A program made the position numbers and the translations under genes. Below are positions 22,064 through 41,303 of a stretch of DNA of 51,186 nucleotides, piece after piece; the stretch's first letter is position 1, and every line of letters begins with the position of its first letter. The notes beneath the pieces are model-generated. The model ran no database searches. It was not told the DNA's origin and saw nothing but the letters and a program-made list of their open reading frames with translations. This DNA is from Bacteroidales bacterium (GTDB taxonomy: Bacteria > Bacteroidota > Bacteroidia > Bacteroidales > Marinilabiliaceae), in contig JAFYCM010000008.1 in the NCBI GenBank assembly GCA_017539645.1, positions 1-51,186 of the forward strand. The letters are read 5' to 3'.

Positions 22064-25000
22064 TTAGGCTCTTAGTTTTTGCAGTCGACGGTGCATACGA
22101 TGCATCTGAATCTTCTCGATGTAGCGCAGCACTCGGCGCAGCAGATCGAAATAGAGCGTGAAATATAGCACTATCGTAAATATCCATAGCATGATGATGT
22201 TGAACCATTGCGTAGGTATGGTGAAGTCGGCAAAACGCTTGTATGGAGCGTAGAAATGCGCACGTCCCCAATGGTTATCTGTGATATTATAGATAGGCTG
22301 CTTCTTACGCACAAGCACGTCGGGGTAAGCTTCAATCTGCGTGAAATCGCGCTTGTTGAGGGCAAATTCGTCGATGGCTTCGTTGGTATTGCGATGCTTC
22401 AGAGCCACCACGGCATCGGTAGAACCGAGTTTCGCAACGAGAGCTTTATTTATGCTGTCAATCTGAGCATTATAGGTATTGAACTGCTCGCTGTAACGCG
22501 TCTTTAGCTCCTCAAGTTGCTGCTCAATTACGGCGTAGCTCGACTCATCGTATTTCGGAGACATCAGCGTGCGCAAGAGCTTCGGATACTTCTTCAAACT
22601 TGTAGATGCAAGTTTGCTAAGCTCCGTAAATAGCAATTCTGAGCGCATTTGCAGTTTCTCATTCTCGCCATTCGAACGCAGCGTTTCGCAATCTTTATTA
22701 ATCTTGCTAAGTTCTGGAATCCAAGAGGTTACTGCATACGATGCCTCACTGCGTTTTTGCTCAGCATTGAAGAAGTGGCGCTCATATTCATTCTCTGTAA
22801 ACTGATAAACTGCCAACGCCTCATACGACCAGCGCGAAATCATCAAGTCGCCAATGCGCGGCACGTACTCTTTGTTGGTTATGCTCTCGTGAAGGTGGTC
22901 GAAGCGCACCATCGTTCCGCTGAAGAGCAGCTGCGGCACTATAATTAACGGTATAAGTATGTATATAGATACCGTACTCTTCAAGCCACTACTTATATTC
23001 AGACCAAACACAATCGACGTTGCGAAGGTGCTGAAGAGTATCGCCCAATGACCGAGCCACATGTCTTCAAGGCCCAAAATGAAGTCGCCAATAAGTACGA
23101 GCGATAGCGATTGAAGCGACGCTAACACAAAGAGATTCAGTATTTTACTATTTAGATATGCCGAGCGACTCAAATTCAAGAACTTCTCGCGCACAAGCAA
23201 TTTGCGGTCTCTTATTATCTCTTGCGCCGACACGTTTAGTCCAACGAAAATAGCCACTATCACGCTCATAAATAGATACGTAGGAATATTCTCGTTGGTG
23301 TATAGGTCGTAGAAGCCCGCGTTGTTGAGGTAGCGCGTGCAGAACGCCAAAAGGAATGCCAAAATGGGCACTTCGAAGATATTTATGAGTAGCGACTGCG
23401 TGTCCTTGAGCTTCTTGAGCGCGTCTCGACGCACGTAAGTGCGGAATTGGCTCACGCGGCTCGGCGCACTGTAGAGGTTGGGGGGAAGTTTCTCCTTCAG
23501 CACTCGCTCTTTGTATTTCCAATCGAACGAGGCTTCAAACTCGTCGCAGTATTGGCGATACCACTCTTCGGGGCTCACTTTGCGCTTGCGTATCAGCTTG
23601 CCCGACGGGTCTACCATTCGCGCCTCAATGATGCGTAGCGGCTGCTCGGTCTTCACGTTGCCACATACGTAACACTCTTTTTCTTCGGGGTTTACGTAGT
23701 GCGCCTTGCGCTTGAAGTATACTATGGCCTGCATCGGGTTGCCATTGTAGACCACGTGTCCGCCTTGGTCGATAATTACAAGTTTGTCGAGCAGTTTATA
23801 TATATCGCTATTCGGCTGGTGAATATTTATAATTACGAGCTTTCCTTTGAGCGCCTGACGTTTTAGCAACATCATAACCTTCTCAGAATCAAAGCTTGAG
23901 AGACCCGACGTTGGCTCATCTACGAAGAGAATCGACGGTTCACGCATAAGCTCGAGCGCTATGTTGAGGCGCTTACGCTGTCCGCCGCTGAGCACCTTGT
24001 TGAGCGGAGTACCTACGCGGAGGTCGTGCGCCTCCACAAGGTCGAAGTCGTTGATGGCTTTCTCCACAAGTTCGTGCTGGCGTTTCTTCGAAAAGTTGCT
24101 AAAAACGAGGCGCGCATTGAAGAGAAGGTTTTCGTATACAGTCAACTCTTCGTTGAGCATATCGTCTTGCGGCACATAGCCAATTACACCTTGCAACTTC
24201 TTGTGGTCGCGATGCAGGTCGTAGCCATTTATACTTATGCTGCCATTCGACAATTTGAGGTTGCCGTTCATAACATTCATAAGCGTCGACTTGCCAGAGC
24301 CCGAACCGCCCATAATACCTACGAGCTGCCCCGATTTGCCAAGGTAGCTGAAGCGGTGAATGCCTATGTTGGTGTCGGAAAATTTATACTCTATGTCGGT
24401 GGCTTTGTATATGATGCGGCCCGTCTCGGTCTTGGTGATGAATTTCTCGGCAATGTGGCCGTAATATACCGGTCGAACGTGCGACGTATTTATCACAGCG
24501 CCAGGCTCCATTGGGTAGACTTTGCCCGGTTCCACCTTATGGCCGCTGAGGTAGAGGTTACGTTCGTTGCTGCAGCGGAAGAGGAATGTGTTGGTGCGCT
24601 TGATATGCAGCACCCAAACCGACACTTGCTGTTTCGAAATAAATATATGCTTGATGTCGGGATTGGGCTTGTCGGGATTGCCGTTTATAAGTAGCAAGCA
24701 GCCTTTGTCCGCAACATTGAGCGGTTCACCGAGCGAGAAATCTTTCAAATTCCAGTAATCGCTGGGCGGGATACGCAGATGCTCAGCCAAATTGTCGATG
24801 AAGAGTTCCTCCTCTTCTGTAATCTCAGGCTCGCGCATGAAGTTGAGCAGCGAGTTGAGTATCAATATTTTGGCTTCGAGATCAATTTCTCTATTTATAT
24901 CAGCACATATACGGCTCATAACCACGAGGTTGCTCGCGGCTTCATCTTCGGGCGTACTTTCATCGGTAGCGTTGAAGAAGCCTAAATAGTAGTCGTATCG

Positions 25001-25147
25001 CTTTAGAAATTGCTTGACGTACTCGGTGCTAAATTGCTCCGAAAGGTACTCTTCAACCTTGGCTCGCCCCTCTTTGGTGTTGGTGTGCTTCACCACAGTG
25101 AGAAGAGCATACAATTGCATCAGTGCTTCAAGCAGAACTTCGCTCAT
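22064..25147 (-). CDS. ABCG-like exporter with N-terminal regulatory domains
   Basis: 1027 residues, half-transporter layout. Residues 1-130 are a helical TerB-like region. Residues 165-235 look FHA-like (VWVLHIKRTNTFLFRC, NLYLSGHKV). The ABC ATPase follows: Walker A GGSGSGKST (280-288), signature LSGGQRKR (386-393), Walker B LFVDEPTSGLSSFD (D410, E411) and NIHQP. A CYVCG pair sits near residue 485. An ABC2-type membrane domain with about five hydrophobic segments (about 600-780) is interrupted by a long coiled-coil, periplasm-facing insert (about 800-960); the last membrane helix is near 990. This order is known from Bacteroidetes exporters of unknown cargo; the FHA-like part suggests phosphothreonine-dependent control. 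Confidence 0.85.
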   Translation of the reverse strand: MSEVLLEALMQLYALLTVVKHTNTKEGRAKVEEYLSEQFSTEYVKQFLKRYDYYLGFFNATDESTPEDEAASNLVVMSRICADINREIDLEAKILILNSLLNFMREPEITEEEELFIDNLAEHLRIPPSDYWNLKDFSLGEPLNVADKGCLLLINGNPDKPNPDIKHIFISKQQVSVWVLHIKRTNTFLFRCSNERNLYLSGHKVEPGKVYPMEPGAVINTSHVRPVYYGHIAEKFITKTETGRIIYKATDIEYKFSDTNIGIHRFSYLGKSGQLVGIMGGSGSGKSTLMNVMNGNLKLSNGSISINGYDLHRDHKKLQGVIGYVPQDDMLNEELTVYENLLFNARLVFSNFSKKRQHELVEKAINDFDLVEAHDLRVGTPLNKVLSGGQRKRLNIALELMREPSILFVDEPTSGLSSFDSEKVMMLLKRQALKGKLVIINIHQPNSDIYKLLDKLVIIDQGGHVVYNGNPMQAIVYFKRKAHYVNPEEKECYVCGNVKTEQPLRIIEARMVDPSGKLIRKRKVSPEEWYRQYCDEFEASFDWKYKERVLKEKLPPNLYSAPSRVSQFRTYVRRDALKKLKDTQSLLINIFEVPILAFLLAFCTRYLNNAGFYDLYTNENIPTYLFMSVIVAIFVGLNVSAQEIIRDRKLLVREKFLNLSRSAYLNSKILNLFVLASLQSLSLVLIGDFILGLEDMWLGHWAILFSTFATSIVFGLNISSGLKSTVSIYILIPLIIVPQLLFSGTMVRFDHLHESITNKEYVPRIGDLMISRWSYEALAVYQFTENEYERHFFNAEQKRSEASYAVTSWIPELSKINKDCETLRSNGENEKLQMRSELLFTELSKLASTSLKKYPKLLRTLMSPKYDESSYAVIEQQLEELKTRYSEQFNTYNAQIDSINKALVAKLGSTDAVVALKHRNTNEAIDEFALNKRDFTQIEAYPDVLVRKKQPIYNITDNHWGRAHFYAPYKRFADFTIPTQWFNIIMLWIFTIVLYFTLYFDLLRRVLRYIEKIQMHRMHRRLQKLRA

Positions 25148-29565: not shown

Positions 29566-29596
29566 CAAATGTAGGTCTTGCACGCGTTTTATCAAA
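29566..29596 (-). promoter_or_regulatory. Promoter of carA
   Basis: On the minus strand TTTG (29596-29593), 19 bases, TACATTTG (29573-29566): an exact Bacteroidetes consensus. The leader before carA would be about 50 bases. Confidence 0.7.
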
Positions 29597-29603
29597 GTAC
29601 ATA

Positions 29604-32600
29604 TTAGAACTTTATACCCATTATAAGTATGTCGTCTATTTGCTCGCGATTGCCTTTCCATTTGCGGAACTCCTCTTTCAAGTAGTCCATCTGCTCTTCC
29701 ATAGGTTTCTCGAAGATATTTTCGAGCGTACGTTTGAAGGCTCCCGTGGTATATTTATCGCCAGTCTTCTCGCCAAATTGGTCGGTGAATCCATCGCTGC
29801 TGAGATAGAATACGTCTCCAGGGTAGAATTGCGTTGTGGTCTCTACGAATTCGTTACCGTTTCGGCGGTCGCCTATGCTTCGGCGCGTACCTTTTATCTC
29901 GCTTAACTTACCTTTTATAAATGTGTATATAGAGCGACGTGCAGCTGCCGATACCATCACCAAATTATCGAGATCAATATCCACTATCGCGCAGTCCATA
30001 CCATCTTGTGTTTCAATGGTTTGGTTCTTATTAAGCGTATGCTTAATCTCGTGATCGAGGCGGTCGAGGAGCACTGCCGGACGGCGCAACTCTGGGTCGC
30101 GGGTAGCATCATTCAATATTGTAGTACCTATCATCGACATAAATGCACCTGGCACACCATGTCCTGTACAATCGGCACAACAGATTATTATGTGGTTCTC
30201 GTAGCGATTGAACCAATAGAAGTCGCCACTGACTACATCGCGCGGCATAAATAGCAGGAACGAATCCTTGAACGGGAAGTCTTGCAGACTTGTCTGCGGC
30301 GGTAGGATAGCCGTCTGTATGCGTTTCGCATAGTTTATACTATCCATTATATCGTTGTTCTTGCGCTCGATGATTGCATTTTTACTACTCAACTCAGCCG
30401 TCTGACGCGCAACTTCAGTTTCAAGTTCTTGCTGACGCTGGCGAAGTTGACGTTCGCGCATCTTGGTGATGAAACGTCCAAGCGCAGCCACAAAGAATAG
30501 AATCGTTATTGGGAACCACGTCGACTTCCAGAATGGGTTGTCTATATGTATATCTACTGTGAGAGGTCGACCGCTGATAGCACCGTCGCTATTTACGGCG
30601 CGAACGTGAAGTTTGTAGTCGCCGTCGGGAAGGAAGTCGAACTCTTTGTGACTCTGCATACCAAGAGGCATCCAACGTTCGTCTTTAGAAGTCGACCCGC
30701 CTATCTCAAGCCAATATTCGTAGCGTACGTTGATAGGGTCTTTCATACATACGCCTACGAAGCTGAATTCGAACTTCGCCACATTTCCATCGTATGGATA
30801 AGGCAAGTCGATAGGTTCGGAGAGGTCATGCTTCTTACCCGAAATAGTTACACCAATAAGGTTGATGAGCGGCGGCACGCTATTGCGCTTGTCGTAGAGC
30901 GACATATAGTGCATAGCACCGCAATTGGCTGTAAACCAAAGGTCACCATTGTTATCGGCAGACACGCCCGAAAATTCTTGACTTATACCGTTCGATGCAT
31001 TGAACACTCGAATATTACCCGTGCCAAGGTCTACACAACTCAAGCCCGGTTGATGACAAACCCAGATGCGACCATTCTCGTCGGTAGCAATGCCGTAGCA
31101 ATAGTTTTTCTCAAGGCCATCGGTAGTGCTTATGGACTGCATCGAGCCATCTTCATTGTTACATATTATGCCATTGTTGACCGTAGCGAGCCACATACGA
31201 CCACGCTTATCGAATGTCATACCGGCAATATTTACAGGAATATCCGACAAACGATAAATCTCGAATGTACCGTTTTCTCCGTAAGGCGTGTAGAGCGCTA
31301 TACCGCTATCTTTAGGACCGAGCCAAACTTGTCCCTCTTTGTCTATGTACGTAAAATTGATGTTGTTGTGCGGCAAACCCTGCAGTGTGGTATATAGTTG
31401 CGGATTGCCCGTCGTGAGGTCGTATACAAAGAAACCGCCTTGAGTAGCAAGGTATAAATGGTGCTCGTCTATCTGCATACCATTTATCATCTCACACGTG
31501 AGCGATGGTGCGCCGTAGTTGAGTTTGTAGAATCGCGGAGAATCGCTCATTCGGTAATAAACGCCATCGTTCTCTGTACCTAAGTATGTGATTTTCCGGC
31601 GTTTATCTATGCATATTGATGTTATAGCAATATTGGTTGGCAATCCGTACGCACTATCGAAATACTCGAAGTTGGTCATACACTGCACGTCCATACGTAT
31701 GAGGCCATTAGCCATGCCGAGCCAAAGGTCGTTGCCATCGACAGCCGATGAGAAAACTTTGTTGCGTTGAAAACCGATGTCGGCTGTGTTGTATTGCGCA
31801 AAGTAGTTGTTAATCCACGCCACAACGCCGCTGCCATACGTAGCAAACCAGAAGATGCCTTCGCGGTCGACCGTAATATCCGCTACATAATTATTTCCAA
31901 GTCCGTTATCTTCGGTAAGTTGCAGCACCTCAACGTATTGGTTACGTTCGTCGGAGAAGCGCATCTCGCGTACGCCGTAGCCCCACGTAGCCAAATAGAG
32001 GTTGTTGCCTTCGTCTTCGTAAATATCGCGTATGTCATACGTAATAATATCGGTACTTGCGCACGACTCGGAGCAGCGGCTGACCTGCGTTGCGCCTACG
32101 CCATGGGTATACTTATATACATTGCCTACGTCTGTTCCTATCCAAAAACTACGACCATCGTAGCTCTTGCTAATACAGTTCACAGCATCGTACGTACCTT
32201 CAATCTGTGTTTCTGATTTCAGTTCGCCATCGGCATCGAACTTCACAAGCATAAGGCCATCCGACGTACCTACGAGGATGTTGAGCGAGTTGACAGCATT
32301 TACAGAATAGTATATATGCTGCCCCATAAGTTCGTTGTCGAAAAATGTGGTTGTTTTCTTATTAGGGTTGATGCGAATCAGACCTTGGTTTTGCTCCACT
32401 GCCCAGATATTGCCCTTATCATCGAGGCACATATCCTTGATAGGAGCATTTACGCCCGGCACAAAAACACGTGAGAATCTATTCTTCTCGAACACCGAAA
32501 AGTTGCCATTGCCATGACCGCACCAGAGACGGTTGTCAGAGTCGACAAGCAGACGGCTAACGTAGTTATCTGCCAACGAGTCGCGCGTGAAATAGTTCAC

Positions 32601-32795
32601 GAAGTTTATGCCATCGTAGCGCGTCAGACCTTCAGCCATAGCCATCCACATAAAACCATTTGGATCCTGGGCTACGCTATAAACGTAGTTCTGCGGCAGG
32701 CCGTTAGACATGGTATATTTAGCCAAGTTGAAGTTTTGTGCCATTGCGCACAAAGCTGCTTGTAGCAAAATCAGTGTTAACGCGATTTTTCTCAT
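29604..32795 (-). CDS. Membrane sensor: periplasmic beta-propellers, Y_Y_Y domain, SpoIIE/PP2C phosphatase
   Basis: 1063 residues. A signal peptide (CAMAQ, about residue 20) leads into about 14 propeller repeats of the two-component-regulator type (DPNGFMWMAMAEGLTRYDG, D.KGNIW, D..GRIWV), spanning about 25-640. A Y_Y_Y-like beta-sandwich follows (about 650-750), then one transmembrane helix (about 757-777), a coiled coil (779-825) and a SpoIIE serine phosphatase (about 840-1063). The metal-binding residues are intact: Asp853/Asp858 (PRDVVSGDF), Asp875 with GHG (CADCTGHG), Asp1001 (LSSDGFTD) and Asp1054/1055 (QIDDILIMG). Such phosphatases usually act on anti-anti-sigma (STAS) proteins. It is last in the 37864-29604 operon, 40 bases after the preceding gene. 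Confidence 0.88.
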   Translation of the reverse strand: MRKIALTLILLQAALCAMAQNFNLAKYTMSNGLPQNYVYSVAQDPNGFMWMAMAEGLTRYDGINFVNYFTRDSLADNYVSRLLVDSDNRLWCGHGNGNFSVFEKNRFSRVFVPGVNAPIKDMCLDDKGNIWAVEQNQGLIRINPNKKTTTFFDNELMGQHIYYSVNAVNSLNILVGTSDGLMLVKFDADGELKSETQIEGTYDAVNCISKSYDGRSFWIGTDVGNVYKYTHGVGATQVSRCSESCASTDIITYDIRDIYEDEGNNLYLATWGYGVREMRFSDERNQYVEVLQLTEDNGLGNNYVADITVDREGIFWFATYGSGVVAWINNYFAQYNTADIGFQRNKVFSSAVDGNDLWLGMANGLIRMDVQCMTNFEYFDSAYGLPTNIAITSICIDKRRKITYLGTENDGVYYRMSDSPRFYKLNYGAPSLTCEMINGMQIDEHHLYLATQGGFFVYDLTTGNPQLYTTLQGLPHNNINFTYIDKEGQVWLGPKDSGIALYTPYGENGTFEIYRLSDIPVNIAGMTFDKRGRMWLATVNNGIICNNEDGSMQSISTTDGLEKNYCYGIATDENGRIWVCHQPGLSCVDLGTGNIRVFNASNGISQEFSGVSADNNGDLWFTANCGAMHYMSLYDKRNSVPPLINLIGVTISGKKHDLSEPIDLPYPYDGNVAKFEFSFVGVCMKDPINVRYEYWLEIGGSTSKDERWMPLGMQSHKEFDFLPDGDYKLHVRAVNSDGAISGRPLTVDIHIDNPFWKSTWFPITILFFVAALGRFITKMRERQLRQRQQELETEVARQTAELSSKNAIIERKNNDIMDSINYAKRIQTAILPPQTSLQDFPFKDSFLLFMPRDVVSGDFYWFNRYENHIIICCADCTGHGVPGAFMSMIGTTILNDATRDPELRRPAVLLDRLDHEIKHTLNKNQTIETQDGMDCAIVDIDLDNLVMVSAAARRSIYTFIKGKLSEIKGTRRSIGDRRNGNEFVETTTQFYPGDVFYLSSDGFTDQFGEKTGDKYTTGAFKRTLENIFEKPMEEQMDYLKEEFRKWKGNREQIDDILIMGIKF

Positions 32796-32835
32796 GTGTT
32801 TATTTTATTCGGTTTGTGCTACAGCGACAAGCGCT

Positions 32836-33819
32836 CTACTTCTTGGGCTTGACGCCTATCGTATACTTATACTTAGGAATACCACCGATAGGTACACTAT
32901 AGAACGGAAGCAGTTCGCCGTACTGGTTCTCCAAATATATCACTACGTTGTTATTCTTCAACGGTTTCGACTTCGATTTTATCATTTGAATGTCCCAAGA
33001 TGAGTTTTTCTCGGCATCGTCGATCTTGTGCGTACTGCTTTGCCACTCGTTGTCGTTAGAAGTTTTCATCATCACGCCATTTTTGCTGACGGAGATAATA
33101 CGTAGGAATCCATCGCTATCCCAGTCGAAGTTCGATTGCTTAATCGAAACCACGCGGTTGTCGATGTATGGGTAGATATGCGACACTTCGGTGCCACTAT
33201 CGTGCATACGGAATTTATATTTGAAATAGTATGCAAATGCGCCGTCAACTTTGACGTTGTTGTTGCCATTGCGCGAGAGGAATAGGCGGTACATATTACC
33301 ATCGTCACCCGAAGCACCTTCTATGACAAGTTTGAATGTGCGTCCGCCAAACTCAGGTAGATTCTCGCCTTCTGATGGGTTAATTGGACCAAACGTGTAC
33401 CATTTGCCATCGAATGTAGGCTCAGAGCCAAATGTCTTGGTAAGTAGCATTGTACCGCTCTTGTAGTTGCCTTTCTCGTTGCATTTCTGCGCATCTTTAT
33501 TGGAGCAAGAGCCAGCGCCACCATATACGGTAAATCTTGTTTTGGTGTTCCATGAAGTTTTCATCTCATCGTTCTCGCCACCGCAATCGGGGTCGAACAC
33601 GCGAATGAAGATTGGCGAATTGTGGTCGGCAGGTATAGAGAAAAATATTATTTGAACGAAGTTGTCATCGCCCCACGCAGTTTCGCCGTCTTTGCCAAAT
33701 GTAATGAGGTATGGAATGTTCTCATCGGTTCCTGGAACGGGTTGCGCATTCACTGCTTGAAGCCCAAGCATAAGCGCAAATGATGCTATAATAAAACGTT
33801 TCATGTGATAAGTTTTCAT
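32836..33819 (-). CDS. Secreted protein of unknown function in the T9SS-linked operon
   Basis: 327 residues. Signal peptide, cut near VNAQ (about residue 25). The mature part is rich in beta-strand, Asn, Asp and Gly, with a four-cysteine patch (FDPDCGGEND, GAGSCSNKDAQKC) that may form disulphides; I recognise no family. The ATG at 33819 overlaps the previous gene's TGA (ATGA), which argues for this start although MKRF five residues later looks like a cleaner signal peptide. Its position between the PD40-PKD protein and the sensor phosphatase suggests a periplasmic or surface partner. Confidence 0.6.
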   Translation of the reverse strand: MKTYHMKRFIIASFALMLGLQAVNAQPVPGTDENIPYLITFGKDGETAWGDDNFVQIIFFSIPADHNSPIFIRVFDPDCGGENDEMKTSWNTKTRFTVYGGAGSCSNKDAQKCNEKGNYKSGTMLLTKTFGSEPTFDGKWYTFGPINPSEGENLPEFGGRTFKLVIEGASGDDGNMYRLFLSRNGNNNVKVDGAFAYYFKYKFRMHDSGTEVSHIYPYIDNRVVSIKQSNFDWDSDGFLRIISVSKNGVMMKTSNDNEWQSSTHKIDDAEKNSSWDIQMIKSKSKPLKNNNVVIYLENQYGELLPFYSVPIGGIPKYKYTIGVKPKK

Positions 33820-35192
33820 TTTACAACTGTTATTTCTATGTAGTTGCTAACGCGAACCGATTTGTCTTTATCATCAATTGTGCCACATACCACTCGGTAG
33901 GTTCCCGGTTTTTTATATTTAGTAGTTACCTGCTTGCCTTTTACGAGCACTCCTTGGCCAAAATTCCAATAAAATTTTGTTGGTTTGAACGCCGTAACTC
34001 CCGATGCATCAACGTCAAACTGGACTTCTTGACCTACATGTATGGTGCCCGCAAGACAGCTTATTTTTAGCTGTTCTTTATGCTCTATCTCGAAAGGAAA
34101 ATTAACAAGCGAAAACATCTCTTCGTTGGTCGTTTTGTCGAAAACGCTGAGTACCACATCGTACATACCTGGACCTTTGAAACAGTGATCGACTTCCAAA
34201 CCTGCCACTTCTGCCCCATCGCTAAACGACCATTTGAACGAAAATTCGCTCGGGTCGTAGTTCTCTGCCGAACTCTCGTAGAATGTGTAGCAAAGAGTCT
34301 CCTCCTCGTATGGCTGCGGATTGTCGAAGCGTGGGAATGTCTCCTCGAAATAGTAGATGCGCTCCTTGCCTTGACGGTTGCTGGTGAAGAAACCCCACTC
34401 TTCGTTTTTACTATAAAAGAAGCCATAGTCGTCGGCAGCGGAATTTATACCGAAGTCCACTTTGACTGGCTTTGCGTAGCCATCTTTAGTAGGATATGTA
34501 TAGTAAATATCGAGTCGGCGACTATCGGGGCGACCGCTGCTGGCAAAGAATATCAAACCCGAATCGTGGATGAATGGCGAAGTTTCTGCCTCTTTGGTAT
34601 TTACGTCGGGGCCCATATTTTCGGGTTCGGACCATGATCCAGCCACTTTCTGACATATATACAAGTCCGACGAGCCATAGCCACCATCTTTGTCGCTGGC
34701 AAAAATCATCGTTTTGCCGTCGGGCGAAATTGCTGGATATGCGGCGTTGCCCTTGCCAAGGTTTTTCACCACTTCGCTGCCGTTCGTCGCATCGCCACGG
34801 TCGTTGTAGCTAAATATTCCTAATGGATGTCCGTGGTAGCTATCGCGTTCGAGGTCGTTTTGCGTAACTATGGGCTGCTCGCCAGAAAAGGTAATGCCCA
34901 CTTGGTTGTATACACGATTGCTATTGCGGAAAAAGCTATGCGTTAGACCGCTCGGCTGGCGATTTTTCAGTTTTACGTAGTATAGCTGGTAGAGACGCGA
35001 TTCGTCACTATTGAAATAGTTTACGGCAATGCTATTCTTCTTATTCGACGAGAAATAGAGCACCGAATCGACCACAACAGGGTTTATGATGTTGGCATCG
35101 CTAAAGATGTCGATAGACGAAATCTTCACTTGCTGGGCGCGCGTGCCAGCAGCCATAAGCAGAAGAATGATATATATGAATGCTCGTTTCAT
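33816..35192 (-). CDS. PD40 beta-propeller plus PKD-domain exported protein
   Basis: 458 residues. The signal peptide ends at TRAQ (about residue 19). Residues 20-290 have PD40/WD40-like repeats (AISPDGKTMIFASDKDGGYG, SSDLYICQK, GFFTSNRQGKERIYYF) much like the propeller of the PorE-like protein at 2152. Residues about 300-385 and 385-458 are two PKD-type Ig folds (FSFKWSFSDGAEV, FYWNFGQGVLV). There is no OmpA domain, so it is not a PorE copy. It lies three bases after the PorP/SprF gene and overlaps the next gene by four, a tight operon. Probably periplasmic, helping its secreted partner (inference). Confidence 0.78.
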   Translation of the reverse strand: MKRAFIYIILLLMAAGTRAQQVKISSIDIFSDANIINPVVVDSVLYFSSNKKNSIAVNYFNSDESRLYQLYYVKLKNRQPSGLTHSFFRNSNRVYNQVGITFSGEQPIVTQNDLERDSYHGHPLGIFSYNDRGDATNGSEVVKNLGKGNAAYPAISPDGKTMIFASDKDGGYGSSDLYICQKVAGSWSEPENMGPDVNTKEAETSPFIHDSGLIFFASSGRPDSRRLDIYYTYPTKDGYAKPVKVDFGINSAADDYGFFYSKNEEWGFFTSNRQGKERIYYFEETFPRFDNPQPYEEETLCYTFYESSAENYDPSEFSFKWSFSDGAEVAGLEVDHCFKGPGMYDVVLSVFDKTTNEEMFSLVNFPFEIEHKEQLKISCLAGTIHVGQEVQFDVDASGVTAFKPTKFYWNFGQGVLVKGKQVTTKYKKPGTYRVVCGTIDDKDKSVRVSNYIEITVVK

Positions 35193-35195
35193 CGC

Positions 35196-36119
35196 TTAGA
35201 AGAATTTAGGACCGACAACTTTCACCTTGTATATAAAATCGTATTGTAGCGAAATCTCGTGCGAGCCGTTGTTGTATCCGCTTAGGTCGCCAGTGGTAAA
35301 CTCGAAATGGTACGCCACACGGAAGCGTTTTGCCACTTGCGCTGCCAAACCCAAAATTGCATCGCCATCGGTGCGATAACCCGCGCTGACCCAAAGGAAG
35401 TTGTTGTATATGCCACTGAGCGTAGCATCGAGGTGCGTGTCCTCGCTTTTCTTGTAGCGCATAAGTAGCGAAGGCTGAAGCTCGAACTTGTCGGAAATAT
35501 CAAATAGATAGCCGCCTGTAGCTATGTATGTAGCATCGCCTGGCGCGAATTTGGCACTGCGCTGGTCGAAGTCGTCACTCACAAGGAGCGATTGCACCGA
35601 TGCGCCCACAAAGTACTTCTGTCCGTACCAACTTGCGCCCACACCAAGCAGTGGAGCCGCAGAAGTTTCATTTTCACTAAAGACATCGTCGGTATTTTCG
35701 TCCATCAGGCGAACTTTAGTCCAATCGGTTTTGTGCAACGAGATACCTGGTTGCAAAGCGAACGACAGCCATTGGTGCTTGCCCGTACTCACGCGGTAGC
35801 CCACAGCCGCCATAAGACCGGTGTTCGACGATTGATGAATATGTTGGTTGTAAGCTTGTACGCCCAAAACGAGGTTGTCGTGCTTGAGTGGTGCATGAGC
35901 CGTAAGCAGAATACTTCGCGGCGTATTTTCTATGCCAGCCCACTGTTTGCGGAAGCTGCCAAAAATCGAAAGACCATTTCGCGCACCAGCAAACGACGGA
36001 TTCACTGCATACCTATTATGTATATATTGGCTTATAATGAGTTCATTTTGCGCCGTTACCGTTATCGTAGCCATCACAACAGCTACCACAGATAATATTT
36101 TTTTTGTGGCTTGCATCAT
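35196..36119 (-). CDS. PorP/SprF family outer-membrane protein
   Basis: 307 residues. A signal peptide ends at TVTAQ (about residue 24). It is followed by SQYIHNRYAVNPSFAGARNG, the diagnostic start of the PorP/SprF family ('Q.Y.NPA.AG..'), FRKQWAGIENTPRS, then amphipathic strands of a beta-barrel to the C-terminus. In Flavobacterium SprF is needed to deliver SprB, a protein with a type B sorting domain; here the gene directly follows such a protein with a four-base overlap (ATGA), so it is the likely dedicated partner. ATG codons at 36119 and 36116 are both possible; the first gives the coupling overlap. Confidence 0.88.
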   Translation of the reverse strand: MMQATKKILSVVAVVMATITVTAQNELIISQYIHNRYAVNPSFAGARNGLSIFGSFRKQWAGIENTPRSILLTAHAPLKHDNLVLGVQAYNQHIHQSSNTGLMAAVGYRVSTGKHQWLSFALQPGISLHKTDWTKVRLMDENTDDVFSENETSAAPLLGVGASWYGQKYFVGASVQSLLVSDDFDQRSAKFAPGDATYIATGGYLFDISDKFELQPSLLMRYKKSEDTHLDATLSGIYNNFLWVSAGYRTDGDAILGLAAQVAKRFRVAYHFEFTTGDLSGYNNGSHEISLQYDFIYKVKVVGPKFF

Positions 36120-37864
36120 TTCTTGTTGCGTTTTACTACTAATGTTTCTTTCACTGTCTTTGTGCCGCGCCCTTTGAATACGTATACATAGTATCCGTCT
36201 TCAAGATTTTCTGCCGACCAATCGTTGCGATAGTTATGCGCCTCGAAAACCTTCTTGCCGTGCATGTCGCAGACAAAAACATCGTTCTCGTCGGGCAAAC
36301 CTTCGATGCGCAAGCAGTCGTTCACGCCATCGCCATTCGGACTTATGGCGTTAGGATAGCGGAACGGCATCTCTACATATAGCGTAACCTCTTTCTCTGT
36401 AGCGCAGCCTGCAACCGACGCGTCGAGAGCATTGCCGTTGCGGTCGTCGGTATTGGTTTCGGTAACTATCAATGTGATGTAGCCGTTCATGTTTGTGCGG
36501 AAAAGTCCAGTGTATATGCCGTCTACATCGTCATCTTCGCGGACAATCTCAGGGCGATAATCCACATCGTAGTCACTGCACTGTTCGCCAAGTCGCCACG
36601 TGATGCTATTGCCAGACCCCAGGCTACCTCTATCGCGCACGTAGACAGGAATCTCCAAGTCGTGTTTCTTGTCTATAACGTACGAAAGAGTGTCGCGGCT
36701 GAAATTCGGATTCGGCGTACGATCGTAGACGTCCACAACGCCATAGACATGCTCGCCTGCGCCGAAATGCGAAACGCAGTTGTTGGCATCTACAATCTCT
36801 GCTATATATACATCTTCGGGCACAGCAATATCGAACTCTATCGCGTTGACGCCGTCTATGTAGTAATCGCCCTCGGAGTAAGTACTATCAATATTCATGC
36901 GGTCGTGCCAAAGTTCACTGGCAATCACTTCCGCCGAAGTTCCCCACTCGCCTTTTATCTCAGCAGGCTGAACGTCGCTATATGTAGCACCATTCGACAA
37001 CTTCACCGTGTATGGAGCCACACCGCCATACGTATTCCACGCTGCCAAATATGCATCTACTCCTTCGCGTTTCTCTCTGATTTTAGGGCAGATACCTATG
37101 GAATCTTTGCGCCAAACAGATGCCGACGGCGTGCCAAGAATCGTAATCTCTTTTTCGACGGAACTTACGCACGTCTTGCCACTCGTCTCGGTGAGGCGCA
37201 TTGTCAGCGCGAGGTGAGTATTAGTAATAATATGTGCTACAGCCGAATCGGTGTTTTCAAATGTCGTGACGTGTGGCGCATCGGCATCGCTAATGGAGGC
37301 TATTGACCAACTGTATGTAGAAATATCGCTCCACTTGGTGTCGGCAGCGAGTTGCTGGTCGTAGCCGCAAAGGCGATTGCCGTTCAATATTTCGGGCGTA
37401 GGTGTAGCATAGACATCAATGCGCAGCGAATCACCAACGAATTTTATCGGCGTGCCTTGCGTTGGGTCTTGCGCCGATATAGATATGTAGTAGAAATTAT
37501 GGGTCTCATCGCCTTTGAGCGTCATTTCCACCTTGTTTTTTATGGTATAGTCGCCGCCCATAGCAGTTACATCGCCGCCTTTTATACTTACATTAAGTGC
37601 ATACTGGGTAACACCCTCATGTATAATTTCGCCGTTTTTGCATACGTATTTACTGACGTTTTCATTGCAGCGAATCACCTCCGCCGTTGAATATTTAGAC
37701 GGAATATTAAGATTTATGGTAGGATGAGGATCGTAAGAGTCACAAGCAATGTAGCCACTTTCAGACACCATTTTTATCTCCACTACGGGGTCTTGCGCCC
37801 GCAGCGATAGTGTGCTAAACGTTGCTATCCCGACAAGGAGAAGTTTTGCGAATGTTAATCTCAT
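36116..37864 (-). CDS. Secreted protein with T9SS type B sorting domain
   Basis: 582 residues. Signal peptide ending LSLRAQ (about residue 24). The middle is a series of beta-sandwich (Ig/PKD-like) modules. The last 85 residues form a type B C-terminal domain: RYPNAISPNGDGVNDCLRI, then VFVCDMHGKKVFEA, DGYYVYVFKGRG, and a final VKETLVVKRNKK. Type B signals direct cargo through the T9SS together with a PorP/SprF-like barrel, encoded next. At 582 residues it is far smaller than the SprB adhesin. It is the first gene of the five-gene operon, with a -7 element 20 bases upstream. Exact function unknown; surface adhesin or stalk component is likely. Confidence 0.82.
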   Translation of the reverse strand: MRLTFAKLLLVGIATFSTLSLRAQDPVVEIKMVSESGYIACDSYDPHPTINLNIPSKYSTAEVIRCNENVSKYVCKNGEIIHEGVTQYALNVSIKGGDVTAMGGDYTIKNKVEMTLKGDETHNFYYISISAQDPTQGTPIKFVGDSLRIDVYATPTPEILNGNRLCGYDQQLAADTKWSDISTYSWSIASISDADAPHVTTFENTDSAVAHIITNTHLALTMRLTETSGKTCVSSVEKEITILGTPSASVWRKDSIGICPKIREKREGVDAYLAAWNTYGGVAPYTVKLSNGATYSDVQPAEIKGEWGTSAEVIASELWHDRMNIDSTYSEGDYYIDGVNAIEFDIAVPEDVYIAEIVDANNCVSHFGAGEHVYGVVDVYDRTPNPNFSRDTLSYVIDKKHDLEIPVYVRDRGSLGSGNSITWRLGEQCSDYDVDYRPEIVREDDDVDGIYTGLFRTNMNGYITLIVTETNTDDRNGNALDASVAGCATEKEVTLYVEMPFRYPNAISPNGDGVNDCLRIEGLPDENDVFVCDMHGKKVFEAHNYRNDWSAENLEDGYYVYVFKGRGTKTVKETLVVKRNKK

Positions 37865-37883: not shown

Positions 37884-37891
37884 CAAAATTA
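37884..37891 (-). promoter_or_regulatory. -7 element of the five-gene surface operon
   Basis: TAATTTTG on the minus strand, 20 bases before the start codon at 37864. The same wording forms the -7 of rplU and asnS. No TTTG at -33. Confidence 0.4.
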
Positions 37892-38045: not shown

Positions 38046-38309
38046 TTATTTCTTACGGTTTTCGAAGTGCTTCTGATAGCGGTTCATGAACTTATCAACA
38101 CGACCAGCGGTGTCGACGAGTTTCATCTTACCAGTGTAGAACGGATGCGACATGCTCGAGATTTCGAGCTTTACTTGTGGATAAGTAACACCATCGATTT
38201 CTACAGATTCCTTAGTGTTCACTGCAGAGCGAACGATGAATGTCTCGCCGTTGGACATGTCGGTAAAAGCTACCAAGCGGTAATTGTCCGGGTGAATTCC
38301 TTCTTTCAT
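38046..38309 (-). CDS. rpmE2: 50S ribosomal protein L31 type B
   Basis: 87 residues. [28 protein letters not shown] and [28 protein letters not shown] are the type B signature. The CXXC zinc pairs of type A are absent, so it is the zinc-free form that can replace type A when zinc is scarce; in many Bacteroidetes it is the only L31. It stands alone, with its own promoter and terminator. Confidence 0.95.
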
Positions 38310-38478: not shown

Positions 38479-41091
38479 TTACTTTATAATCACAAGGTGT
38501 CCGTCCTGAATGTACAAACCGCGCGACGGGTTGGCTACTTTCGTGCCTTGGAGCGTATATATGTCGCCACGTTTGCCTTTGTCGGCAGTTATGGTGCTGA
38601 CGGCGGTAGGTTTTTCGAAGCTGATGACAACGTGTTTGTTGCCGGCTGTCATGGTGAACGTAGCACTTGCGTCGCCGAGGGTGATCTCCTCGCCGTCAAC
38701 AAGAATCTGGGTCGGCTTCATTGCGTATTCGATGGTCACTTCGTCGCCGGCATTGACGAATCGCGGAGCTTTGGTTATGTTGTCCGCGTCTTTCTCGTCG
38801 CAGGTGTAGTCGATGCCGTAGAGCGCTTCGTCGGCCGAGCGGGCAAGAACCGGATATTGCGGACCCTGACGCCATTTGGCGGTGTAGTCGCCAGTGTAGC
38901 CCGCACCGCTGTAGTTGAGCCAATATGCCACAACGCCGCATGCAAACTCATCTACGGTGAATAGTCGCGAAGTCTTCGTAAGTTCTTCGTTACTATATAT
39001 ATAGCCGTTTATGCCGCTCTTTACGCCGAAGTCGGCATACGTAGAAGCCATCTTGCACGAGCCGCCCGACTTGTTGCCGTTGTCGAGGCGGATTGGCTGC
39101 ACCTCGCGCAGGCGGACGGCCTTGGTGTTCTCGTCGGCTCTGTAGTTATAGTAGAAACCGTTCACTTTGCCCGTAGGTTTCAGTTCGCCGATGATGCAAA
39201 GTATGATATGTGGATATTTGGCGCTCAGTTCGTCGCTAACAATCACGTGTCCAGCAAGCGCAAAGCCTTCGACGCTACCGCCGACTTGACTTGCCAGAAT
39301 ATCTACAAACAGCGTGTCGCCGCGTACCGTCCAATTGGCTGTGTCGGCGGCAGTTATGTATATCGCAGTGTTGTCGAAGTAGAGGTCTTGCACCACAGCA
39401 CCCGAATCGATATTCTCGAAGAGACCGCCTTTCATCTGCACTATGAGGTCGGAAATTTCGGCGTCGGTAGCTATGAACTCGCCTGTGTACCTGCCGCCGA
39501 CGGTGCTCAGCATGTGTAGCGATGACGGAATGACAGACTCCAAAAAGTTTACCGACATTTCGGCAACGTTGTGCCGTGTAGTTATCGAGTCTTCGAGCAC
39601 TATCGACGTAGGATTTTCATATTCACTACTATAATTACTCAAGTTGTTCAGCAGAGTCTCTAAACTCTGTATCGACGAGACGTGCGTTTTTTCTGCATAT
39701 TCTGCCATAACGTACATAGTATCAGGCATATTAGCATCAATATTCAACGTAAGTATAGTATCGGTGAGTTGCTCGGCAGAGATGAAGTCGACGTCCTGTC
39801 CATTATTGCCGACAATACGCCAATTCTTGAATTCGTATGCGAACGTCTGTGTGGTGGGTTCTCCTTCGTCGTCATCGTTATGATGGAAATTTTCCTCGAA
39901 CGTCAATTCTGATTCTACATACATCTTGACAACATCGCCCAAGCCGAGCACCAGCCAGTTGTACGACGCGTTACCCCATTCGCCTGGAGCTACGGAAATC
40001 ATCTTGCTTGTGTAGCTACCGCTCTGCTCGTCGTAGTCCCAATTTTCGTACGTAACCAACGCGGTTTCGTTCGACTGCATCATGAGTTGCCCTTGACGGC
40101 CTTCGGGGAATATGTATTTCTTGGCCTCGTTGCGATAGTATGCTATAACTTCGGTGTCGCCTGCCACGGAGTCGATTTTCATAAGACCATCGTCGACCGA
40201 ACCACCATAGACAGCGTAGAACTCGTAGCCAGCCTTAGGTTGAGGTTCAATATTTATAGGCTCGCCGTAGCTATAGCCAACGGCCGTTTCGCCGCGTTCC
40301 GTCATGTTCGGCACTGCCGTAACTTTATAGACTGAACGCACAAGGCGTACGTAGCTTTTATAGTCGCGCGAAATACATTCAATTGTAGCGCCCGTTTGAC
40401 TACTGATGCCAAGTGCCATGGCTGTCGAGTACGGCGCATCGCCGCGTTCCGACGAAGTGTCGTAGCCAGTCGAAGTCCAGAAGAAGGCTCGTTCGCCGTT
40501 CAAATTGCTGTTGAATGGAAGAATGACGGCCTCCTTTTCATAGAATGCTGACATTTCGTTGCCGGTGAGGTGAAGCGCGCCGTCGCTAATAAGAGACACA
40601 TAATACTGAAGCTCTTTCGACGGCTCGTCGGGGAACAACACATAGCCGTAATATTCCTGATCGACGTAGAGCTGGCAACGGCGGTCGGTCGCATTTGCGC
40701 GCTTGTTCAATATGTAATCGAACTCTTCGTATGTAGGAGTGCGCCAAGTTTGAGCGTACTCATCTGCGATATTTACGCCCCAATCGCCACCTTTATCTGA
40801 TGGTATTTCGGCAAGCGAGGCATAATCGGTATTTTCGATCGACTCTGACGAGTAATTCGACAGAAGATTGCACGACCACGCAAACTGCTGAGTACCATAA
40901 TTTTCGAGAATCCACGACCATTCGGTCGCTACAGAATCTTCATACAATGCATGATTGAGAAGAGAAACGTTTGCTTTGGCGAACTGAATCTTGGTAGAAT
41001 CGGATGTTGAAAACAATGCTGTAACATCAACAGCAAAACTGCGCACCGACGTCAGCAACGCCAATAGTGCAAGCGGTAGAATACGTTTCAT
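38479..41091 (-). CDS. Large secreted protein with short T9SS-like C-terminal domain
   Basis: 870 residues from the ATG at 41091; the frame is open for 22 codons upstream but only from this Met is there a signal peptide (KRILPLALLALLTSVRSFA). About residues 60-260 (TWRTPTYEEFDYIL, FFWTSTGY, SYVRLVRSVY) resemble the 'fibrobacter-type' lectin-like FISUMP/DUF1566 domains. Two stretches (PNMTERGETAVGYSYGEPINI, and RFVNAGDEVTIEYA) look like repeat modules for turn-rich beta-sandwiches. The end, GDIYTLQGTKV...RGLYIQDGHLVIIK, is typical of Bacteroidales secreted proteins with a type A-like sorting signal. Function unknown. Confidence 0.7.
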   Translation of the reverse strand: MKRILPLALLALLTSVRSFAVDVTALFSTSDSTKIQFAKANVSLLNHALYEDSVATEWSWILENYGTQQFAWSCNLLSNYSSESIENTDYASLAEIPSDKGGDWGVNIADEYAQTWRTPTYEEFDYILNKRANATDRRCQLYVDQEYYGYVLFPDEPSKELQYYVSLISDGALHLTGNEMSAFYEKEAVILPFNSNLNGERAFFWTSTGYDTSSERGDAPYSTAMALGISSQTGATIECISRDYKSYVRLVRSVYKVTAVPNMTERGETAVGYSYGEPINIEPQPKAGYEFYAVYGGSVDDGLMKIDSVAGDTEVIAYYRNEAKKYIFPEGRQGQLMMQSNETALVTYENWDYDEQSGSYTSKMISVAPGEWGNASYNWLVLGLGDVVKMYVESELTFEENFHHNDDDEGEPTTQTFAYEFKNWRIVGNNGQDVDFISAEQLTDTILTLNIDANMPDTMYVMAEYAEKTHVSSIQSLETLLNNLSNYSSEYENPTSIVLEDSITTRHNVAEMSVNFLESVIPSSLHMLSTVGGRYTGEFIATDAEISDLIVQMKGGLFENIDSGAVVQDLYFDNTAIYITAADTANWTVRGDTLFVDILASQVGGSVEGFALAGHVIVSDELSAKYPHIILCIIGELKPTGKVNGFYYNYRADENTKAVRLREVQPIRLDNGNKSGGSCKMASTYADFGVKSGINGYIYSNEELTKTSRLFTVDEFACGVVAYWLNYSGAGYTGDYTAKWRQGPQYPVLARSADEALYGIDYTCDEKDADNITKAPRFVNAGDEVTIEYAMKPTQILVDGEEITLGDASATFTMTAGNKHVVISFEKPTAVSTITADKGKRGDIYTLQGTKVANPSRGLYIQDGHLVIIK

Positions 41092-41303
41092 ATTACTTAT
41101 GTTTATGTGTGATTTACAATTCTGCGTACGAAGTGTGAGAAGTTCGAACACTTGCATTAAGCATACCGACCGTGTGGCCTACGTAGAGATTTAATATTCG
41201 TGCGAGAAAATACTGATTATTAGGCGAAAAAGAAAATTGTTGCACGCATTTCTGTTGCTAACCCGCGTACGCAGAGCTGTTTATGTGTGTGTATATGTAA
41301 CTG

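Follow-up and report, generated by a model that had tools for sequence, protein, structure and literature searches.

In Bacteroidota, operons that pair a type B cargo protein of the type IX secretion system (T9SS) with an outer-membrane barrel are known. To our knowledge, little is understood of how a cell learns the state of type B surface complexes. Here we analyse a five-gene module, genes A to E, on a contig of a Bacteroidales bacterium (Marinilabiliaceae; GenBank GCA_017539645.1, contig JAFYCM010000008.1, positions 1-51,186, forward strand; this whole stretch of 51,186 nucleotides is the window). Genes A, B and C encode a surface protein, a barrel and a PD40 protein, gene D a conserved secreted protein, and gene E a membrane sensor with a PP2C/SpoIIE phosphatase domain.

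The closest described systems share the gene set of A-B-C. A type B protein with a C-terminal domain (CTD), a barrel and a PD40-type protein form the PorE-PorP-PG1035 complex of Porphyromonas gingivalis, and five operons of Flavobacterium johnsoniae bring together genes for a type B substrate, an SprF-like protein and a PorE homolog (PMC9143113, PMC12618676). SpoIIE is not mentioned in the main text of either report. The present locus differs in that its C protein lacks PorE's TPR and OmpA portions, and in the addition of D and of a transmembrane phosphatase sensor.

The other half of the module recalls SiaABC(D) of Pseudomonas aeruginosa, a partner switch based on threonine phosphorylation. 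There, SiaB is the kinase, and SiaA counters it by dephosphorylating SiaC at T68 (peptide LLYLNTSSIK; PMC7647112). As in that system, a SiaA-like PP2C domain is carried by a membrane sensor, and genes for a SiaB-type kinase and SiaC occur in the genome, beside sister sensors, with SiaC beside the module itself in two relatives. Unlike in that system, the sensing region is a Reg_prop/Y_Y_Y ectodomain, encoded alongside genes for the T9SS surface complex, and siaB and siaC lie outside the operon. A relay from a surface CTD-bearing protein to a membrane sensor has been proposed for P. gingivalis, from PorA to PorXY-SigP (PMC7712824). A histidine kinase and a sigma factor serve there, whereas a phosphatase serves here. 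Reg_prop/Y_Y_Y ectodomains also occur in the hybrid two-component sensors called HTCS; sensor E has the same kind of ectodomain, and its relatives at two loci (L043, L141) have the HisKA-HATPase output, whereas the output in the window is a PP2C phosphatase.

In the open-licence literature we found no paper that links SpoIIE to the T9SS or that describes this module, in agreement with the initial annotation of this DNA, which did not recognise it as described; in the same literature, the family names DUF1987, DUF6272, SiaB and SiaC occurred only in work on P. aeruginosa, without Bacteroidetes. The module is a new composite of known parts and one new family, D.

Results

The five genes are minus-strand open reading frames (ORFs), present where the initial annotation had placed them.

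36116-37864, minus strand: gene A, 582-residue secreted surface protein with a C-terminal CHU_C (type B-like T9SS) sorting domain
35196-36119, minus strand: gene B, 307-residue outer-membrane barrel of the PorP/SprF family
33816-35192, minus strand: gene C, 458-residue PD40 and PKD protein, the PD40 part PorE-like
32836-33819, minus strand: gene D, 327-residue secreted protein without a family
29604-32795, minus strand: gene E, 1063-residue sensor
30561-32738, minus strand: ectodomain of E, about residues 20-745, Reg_prop and Y_Y_Y
29607-30278, minus strand: phosphatase domain of E, about residues 840-1063, SiaA-like

The spacings also agree with that annotation: A and B overlap by 4 bases, B and C are 3 bases apart, C and D overlap by 4, and 40 bases separate D from E.

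The arrangement of these genes elsewhere was followed in two samples: 149 genomes from the order, counting that of the window, and 80 named loci, which are the best 80 of at least 437 confirmed relatives and are biased towards the window's kin. The places found in the first sample overlap with the loci of the second and are not additive. D was found in 18 of the 149 genomes, at 22 places. D is immediately followed by E at 21 of these, and the remaining place is cut by a contig end; leaving the window aside, an E-type sensor stands next to D at 20 of 21 places, counting split ORFs in L033 and a cut gene in L046. Among the named loci E adjoins D in 74, that is, in 73 plus L128, where the ORF caller had missed a D that proved intact on re-check and that is followed by an E-type gene. 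The sensor in the 73 has a SpoIIE output in 70 (five of these ORFs are cut by a contig end) and a kinase output in one (L141), and in two loci (L123, L130) it is a split ORF to which no output was assigned. D and E are separated by a median of 14 nucleotides and overlap in 10 of the 73. Breznakibacter xylanolyticus (L080) is among the named loci.

Upstream of D, an A-B-C run lies within three genes in 70 of the 80 loci. C is directly upstream in 70, within three genes in one more (L111) and absent in eight, L079 included; B and A stand beside C in 70 loci (not in L131). D-E without C upstream is seen in seven of the 80; in three of these the contig end is no more than 2.6 kb from the start, and L075, L085, L092 and L137, also of the seven, have at least 6.9 kb of upstream sequence. 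D-E without A-B-C is seen in L036 as well. Of the six loci without an adjoining E, L144 meets a contig end, L076 shows no E in the roughly 860 bases that its contig has after D, and E is absent from L131 (where a gene on the opposite strand stands in the expected place) and from L077, L078 and L079, metagenome-assembled genomes from horse gut in which a gene resembling, by eye, an outer-membrane receptor replaces E. L077 and L078 show A-B-C-D and L079 starts just before D, perhaps reflecting loss in gut lineages. The five-gene order, presented earlier as fixed, thus recurs widely but not invariably: C is missing before D-E in the seven loci above, E is lacking in L077-L079, and in L040 a second surface-protein/barrel pair lies between C and D.

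A profile of the E ectodomain, with seven candidates scored per genome, gave 19 matches of at least 754 bits in the 149 genomes, and all 19 adjoin D. The next match scores 463 bits, a gap that is widened by the building of the profile from 13 D-linked sensors. Two D-linked sensors score lower, a split one in G047 and a cut-off one (G042:C129), the latter being the 463-bit match. Since all top matches stand beside D, sensors close to E were not found alone; the initial annotation had named a sensor mostly found without the other genes as the outcome that would count against it, and the reverse is seen. On this result we rejected E as a stray sensor, and we rejected a chance neighbourhood on the recurrence of the same order in other genomes. 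The search over Bacteroidales genomes that had been suggested therefore bears out the synteny, and the five genes are almost certainly a real module, whose gene order is shared by many Bacteroidales.

Other genes accompany the module in places. In 19 of the 80 loci (L112, L115 and L121 among them) one of the two genes preceding A encodes a histidine kinase, which is absent in the window; that of L112 has 1232 residues with HAMP. In L111, L112 and L121, E is followed by a pair of convergent genes, alike in size and start, and the pair of L112 consists of a LuxR-type regulator gene and one for a hemerythrin-like protein.

Gene A passes the CHU_C model (PF13585) at 58.3 bits (cut-off 27) and does not pass the NCBIfam type B model TIGR04131 at 23.7 bits (cut-off 35). 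Because of the missed cut-off we rejected it as a TIGR04131 member and file it as a CHU_C protein only; its earlier description as a type B sorting protein holds for the first model and not for the second. Gene B passes both PorP_SprF PF11751 (203.8 bits, cut-off 22.3) and TIGR03519 (218.9 bits, cut-off 90.55), and is among four PorP_SprF matches in the window's genome. Over Pfam cut-offs, gene C has only PD40 and PKD (PKD_4), with no TPR and no OmpA, and it scores 98.6 bits on the NCBIfam PorE model (cut-off 600); C as PorE was rejected on score and domains. In a relative, L134, the C protein has an OmpA domain. Profile searches agree with the initial assignment of B as PorP/SprF, C as PD40-PKD and D as a secreted protein outside known families. 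The SprA translocon is present in all 18 genomes with D, the set to which the SprA search was confined.

Gene D matches no Pfam or NCBIfam family over cut-off, and it is the best conserved member of the module. Mean pairwise identity across 52 complete loci is 58% for D, 56% for the E phosphatase, 38% for both B and the E ectodomain, 36% for C and 26% for A. A confident AlphaFold2 model of D, with a mean predicted local distance difference test score of 85.7, apparently comprises two tandem beta-sandwich domains. Cysteines, which the initial annotation had treated as a hallmark of D, were rejected as a conserved feature, as Cys reaches at most 22 of 42 relatives in any alignment column.

Elsewhere in the phylum, eight genomes from other classes have D-like domains, which stand close to the N-terminus of long ORFs (1149-1649 residues where complete), and the two that were scanned with Pfam have 15 PKD_4 matches each. 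Three of these loci (L192, L193, L196) also have a SpoIIE gene of 387-391 residues and a kinase-profile gene; the SpoIIE gene of L192 encodes a response-regulator/SpoIIE protein, and a HAMP/nucleotide-cyclase gene is present there too. In the phosphatase tree the SpoIIE phosphatases of all three belong to the RsbU-like branch.

Gene E scores 105.4 bits for Reg_prop and 65.6 for SpoIIE, with Y_Y_Y at 23.9 just under its cut-off of 26.6. The parts follow one another as a signal peptide, a Reg_prop propeller region, a Y_Y_Y-like part, one membrane helix, a linker that by eye is coiled, and PP2C/SpoIIE. The 12 most hydrophobic 19-residue windows all fall at residues 1-25 (the signal peptide) or 755-779, and the PP2C motifs are SGDFY at 856, DCTGHGVPGA at 875, SDG at 1000 and DDI at 1054. 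The propellers, single membrane helix and intact phosphatase domain read from the sequence earlier are thus confirmed. The motifs are found in 66 of 66 complete sensors, 65 by a strict pattern, all of them preselected by a SpoIIE profile match. The closest solved relative of the E phosphatase by sequence is P. aeruginosa SiaA (6k4e, E-value 1.3e-42). E as PorZ was rejected, the NCBIfam PorZ model giving 70.8 bits against a cut-off of 260.

In L043 and L141 the same type of ectodomain bears HisKA and HATPase_c, and the L043 sensor is followed by a gene of 133 residues that by eye is response-regulator-like. The incomplete gene of L046 resembles, by eye, the sensors with kinase output. The window's own E shows no HisKA/HATPase kinase output in Pfam. 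An exchange of phosphatase and histidine-kinase outputs on one ectodomain fits an inward signal, and E very probably signals inward. The kinase outputs and the recurring order both speak for the conserved surface-to-cytoplasm module that had been put forward.

The window's genome has seven SiaC and two SiaB matches. At the site equivalent to T68, six of the seven SiaC proteins have NT (NTSSSK in four) and one has NS. Another SpoIIE gene of this genome is followed by SiaB and SiaC (L058), and two sister sensors (L216, L217) are likewise followed by SiaB and SiaC. On a profile of the E phosphatase, the SiaB/SiaC-linked phosphatases of L058, L216 and L217 score 239-259 bits, and the genome's RsbU-type phosphatase 37. 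Near the module, two SiaC genes lie before A on the same strand in L134, the nearer one ending 33 bases before A, and L137 has a SiaC gene just before D and two more about 5 kb after E.

Across genomes, SiaC and SiaB are present in all 18 genomes with D, and SiaC in 45 of the 131 others (Fisher 3.7e-8, kinship ignored). SiaC occurs in 63 of the 149 genomes, always with SpoIIE; it is found in 58 of 60 genomes with at least four SpoIIE versus five of 51 with one to three. Copy numbers of SpoIIE and SiaC rise together (Spearman 0.87 over the 149 genomes, counts listed to about 20 per genome), which points to an extensive phospho-switch network in the order. In our judgement, a SiaC-family protein is probably the substrate of the E phosphatase.

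The sister propeller-SpoIIE sensors are among the next-best ectodomain matches and have an upstream partner gene of their own. In L202-L211 this partner has 779-787 residues with like ends in seven loci and 261-263 residues in L208 and L209, and there is none in L207; the partner in L217 has TPR repeats. The window also encodes a 1027-residue ABC transporter (22064-25147, minus strand) that is homologous (670-805 bits) to ABC proteins beside SiaB-SiaC in L058 and L224, and to an ABC protein at the sister-sensor locus L208.

The module is flanked upstream by a short ORF, named by eye as rpmE2-like (about 38053-38309), and downstream by carA, assigned from its domains. Farther upstream, an 892-residue protein (38479-41157, minus strand) has no Pfam or NCBIfam family over cut-off. 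Two promoter-like features border the genes.

29566-29596, minus strand: promoter-like site TTTG-N19-TACATTTG, Bacteroidetes-type, between E and carA
37884-37891, minus strand: -7-like TAATTTTG, about 20 bases before gene A

The first, which follows what we take to be the Bacteroidetes-type promoter consensus, has three matches in the window against 1.02 expected, and 11 of 100 shuffles have as many, so that the signal is weak; from its position between E and carA, the operon could end with E. Sites of the second kind number 38 in the window against 36 expected and are by themselves no evidence. The 40-base gap between D and E has no TAATTTTG-type site, the nearest on the same strand being at 32932-32939, within D.

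Discussion

We propose a trans-envelope device in which the surface complex A-B-C acts through D on E, and E on the phosphorylation of SiaC, a reading that in our judgement falls just short of being probable as a whole. By analogy with P. gingivalis, B would anchor A at the cell surface, and C would lie on the periplasmic side. D would be a messenger subunit that couples this complex to the propellers of E. We assign it this role because D stays with E in loci that lack A-B-C and with A-B-C in loci that lack E, and on balance we favour it. E would be altered when the complex assembles or when A or D binds a ligand; its phosphatase would then, against the action of a SiaB-type kinase, dephosphorylate a SiaC-family protein at its conserved Thr/Ser, and SiaC would change its partner. 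In relatives with a histidine kinase on E, a two-component route would be taken instead.

Several observations weigh against this proposal. The NCBIfam SiaA equivalog model NF038263 gives gene E 220.5 bits (over residues 771-1063) of the 700 needed, on which we rejected E as a SiaA equivalog; at most, E would function like SiaA. In the phosphatase tree SiaA is weakly placed (73/28) on a long branch, and E and the SiaB/SiaC-linked phosphatases are left unsplit, only the RsbU-like rows being set apart. Profile searches place SiaC near the module in two of the 80 named loci and in none of 21 other fetched loci, and find no SiaC or SiaB gene at the window's own locus. The co-presence of SiaC/SiaB and D across genomes tracks kinship. 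Comparison of the D model with known folds gave weak matches only, and the absence of E beside D in L077-L079 and L131 means that D can exist without E. Finally, among the 18 genomes with D, STAS is present in 17 and HATPase_c_2 in 18 (17 over cut-off).

Coupling through D is also where the best-surviving alternative departs from our proposal. E could be a sensor of a soluble ligand, such as a glycan, with D as its binding protein, and A-B-C could be regulated neighbours outside any joint signalling complex. We consider this unlikely.

A second alternative keeps the surface module and changes the cytoplasmic partner: E would be an RsbU/SpoIIE-type phosphatase acting on a STAS anti-sigma antagonist and freeing a sigma factor by way of an RsbW-like kinase. 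The STAS and RsbW-like genes that the initial annotation proposed to look for elsewhere in the genome do exist in genomes with D, although many of the HATPase_c_2 matches are in long ORFs and are probably histidine kinases. SiaC itself has a STAS-like fold (PMC8457831), so that a single partner family separates the two ideas. The window's genome has one clear RsbU-type set (C17), a phosphatase fused to HATPase with STAS beside it. In the tree, 100/100 support separates that phosphatase from E as well as from the SiaB/SiaC-linked phosphatases; it scores far below the latter on the E-phosphatase profile, and the genes found beside the module in two loci are SiaC genes (these loci were searched for SiaC, not for STAS). 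An anti-sigma/STAS target as first written is not supported, and the idea is weakened without being refuted; SiaC, with SiaB, is the likelier cytoplasmic partner, and we regard the STAS version as distinctly improbable. Least of all do we expect E to monitor general T9SS assembly or export load and to feed back on T9SS genes, as PorY does with PorX-SigP: the PorA relay offers a precedent and SprA is found in every genome with D, but D is in only 18 of 149 genomes, whereas the T9SS is generally taken to be more widespread, and E travels with one cargo/barrel pair in a genome with four PorP_SprF genes.

Returning to the trans-envelope device, a broader form of it is possible, and we hold it more loosely still. 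The module may be a dedicated outside-in line, made up of a T9SS surface protein, a barrel, a PorE-like partner, a new adaptor family (D), a phosphatase and a SiaC switch, and forming one branch of an expanded SpoIIE-SiaC network with exchangeable outputs. The module would connect a T9SS surface complex, by way of one conserved protein, with a defined phosphatase whose substrate family can be tested. A function would thereby also be suggested for the many SpoIIE phosphatases of Bacteroidales, whose numbers follow those of SiaC.

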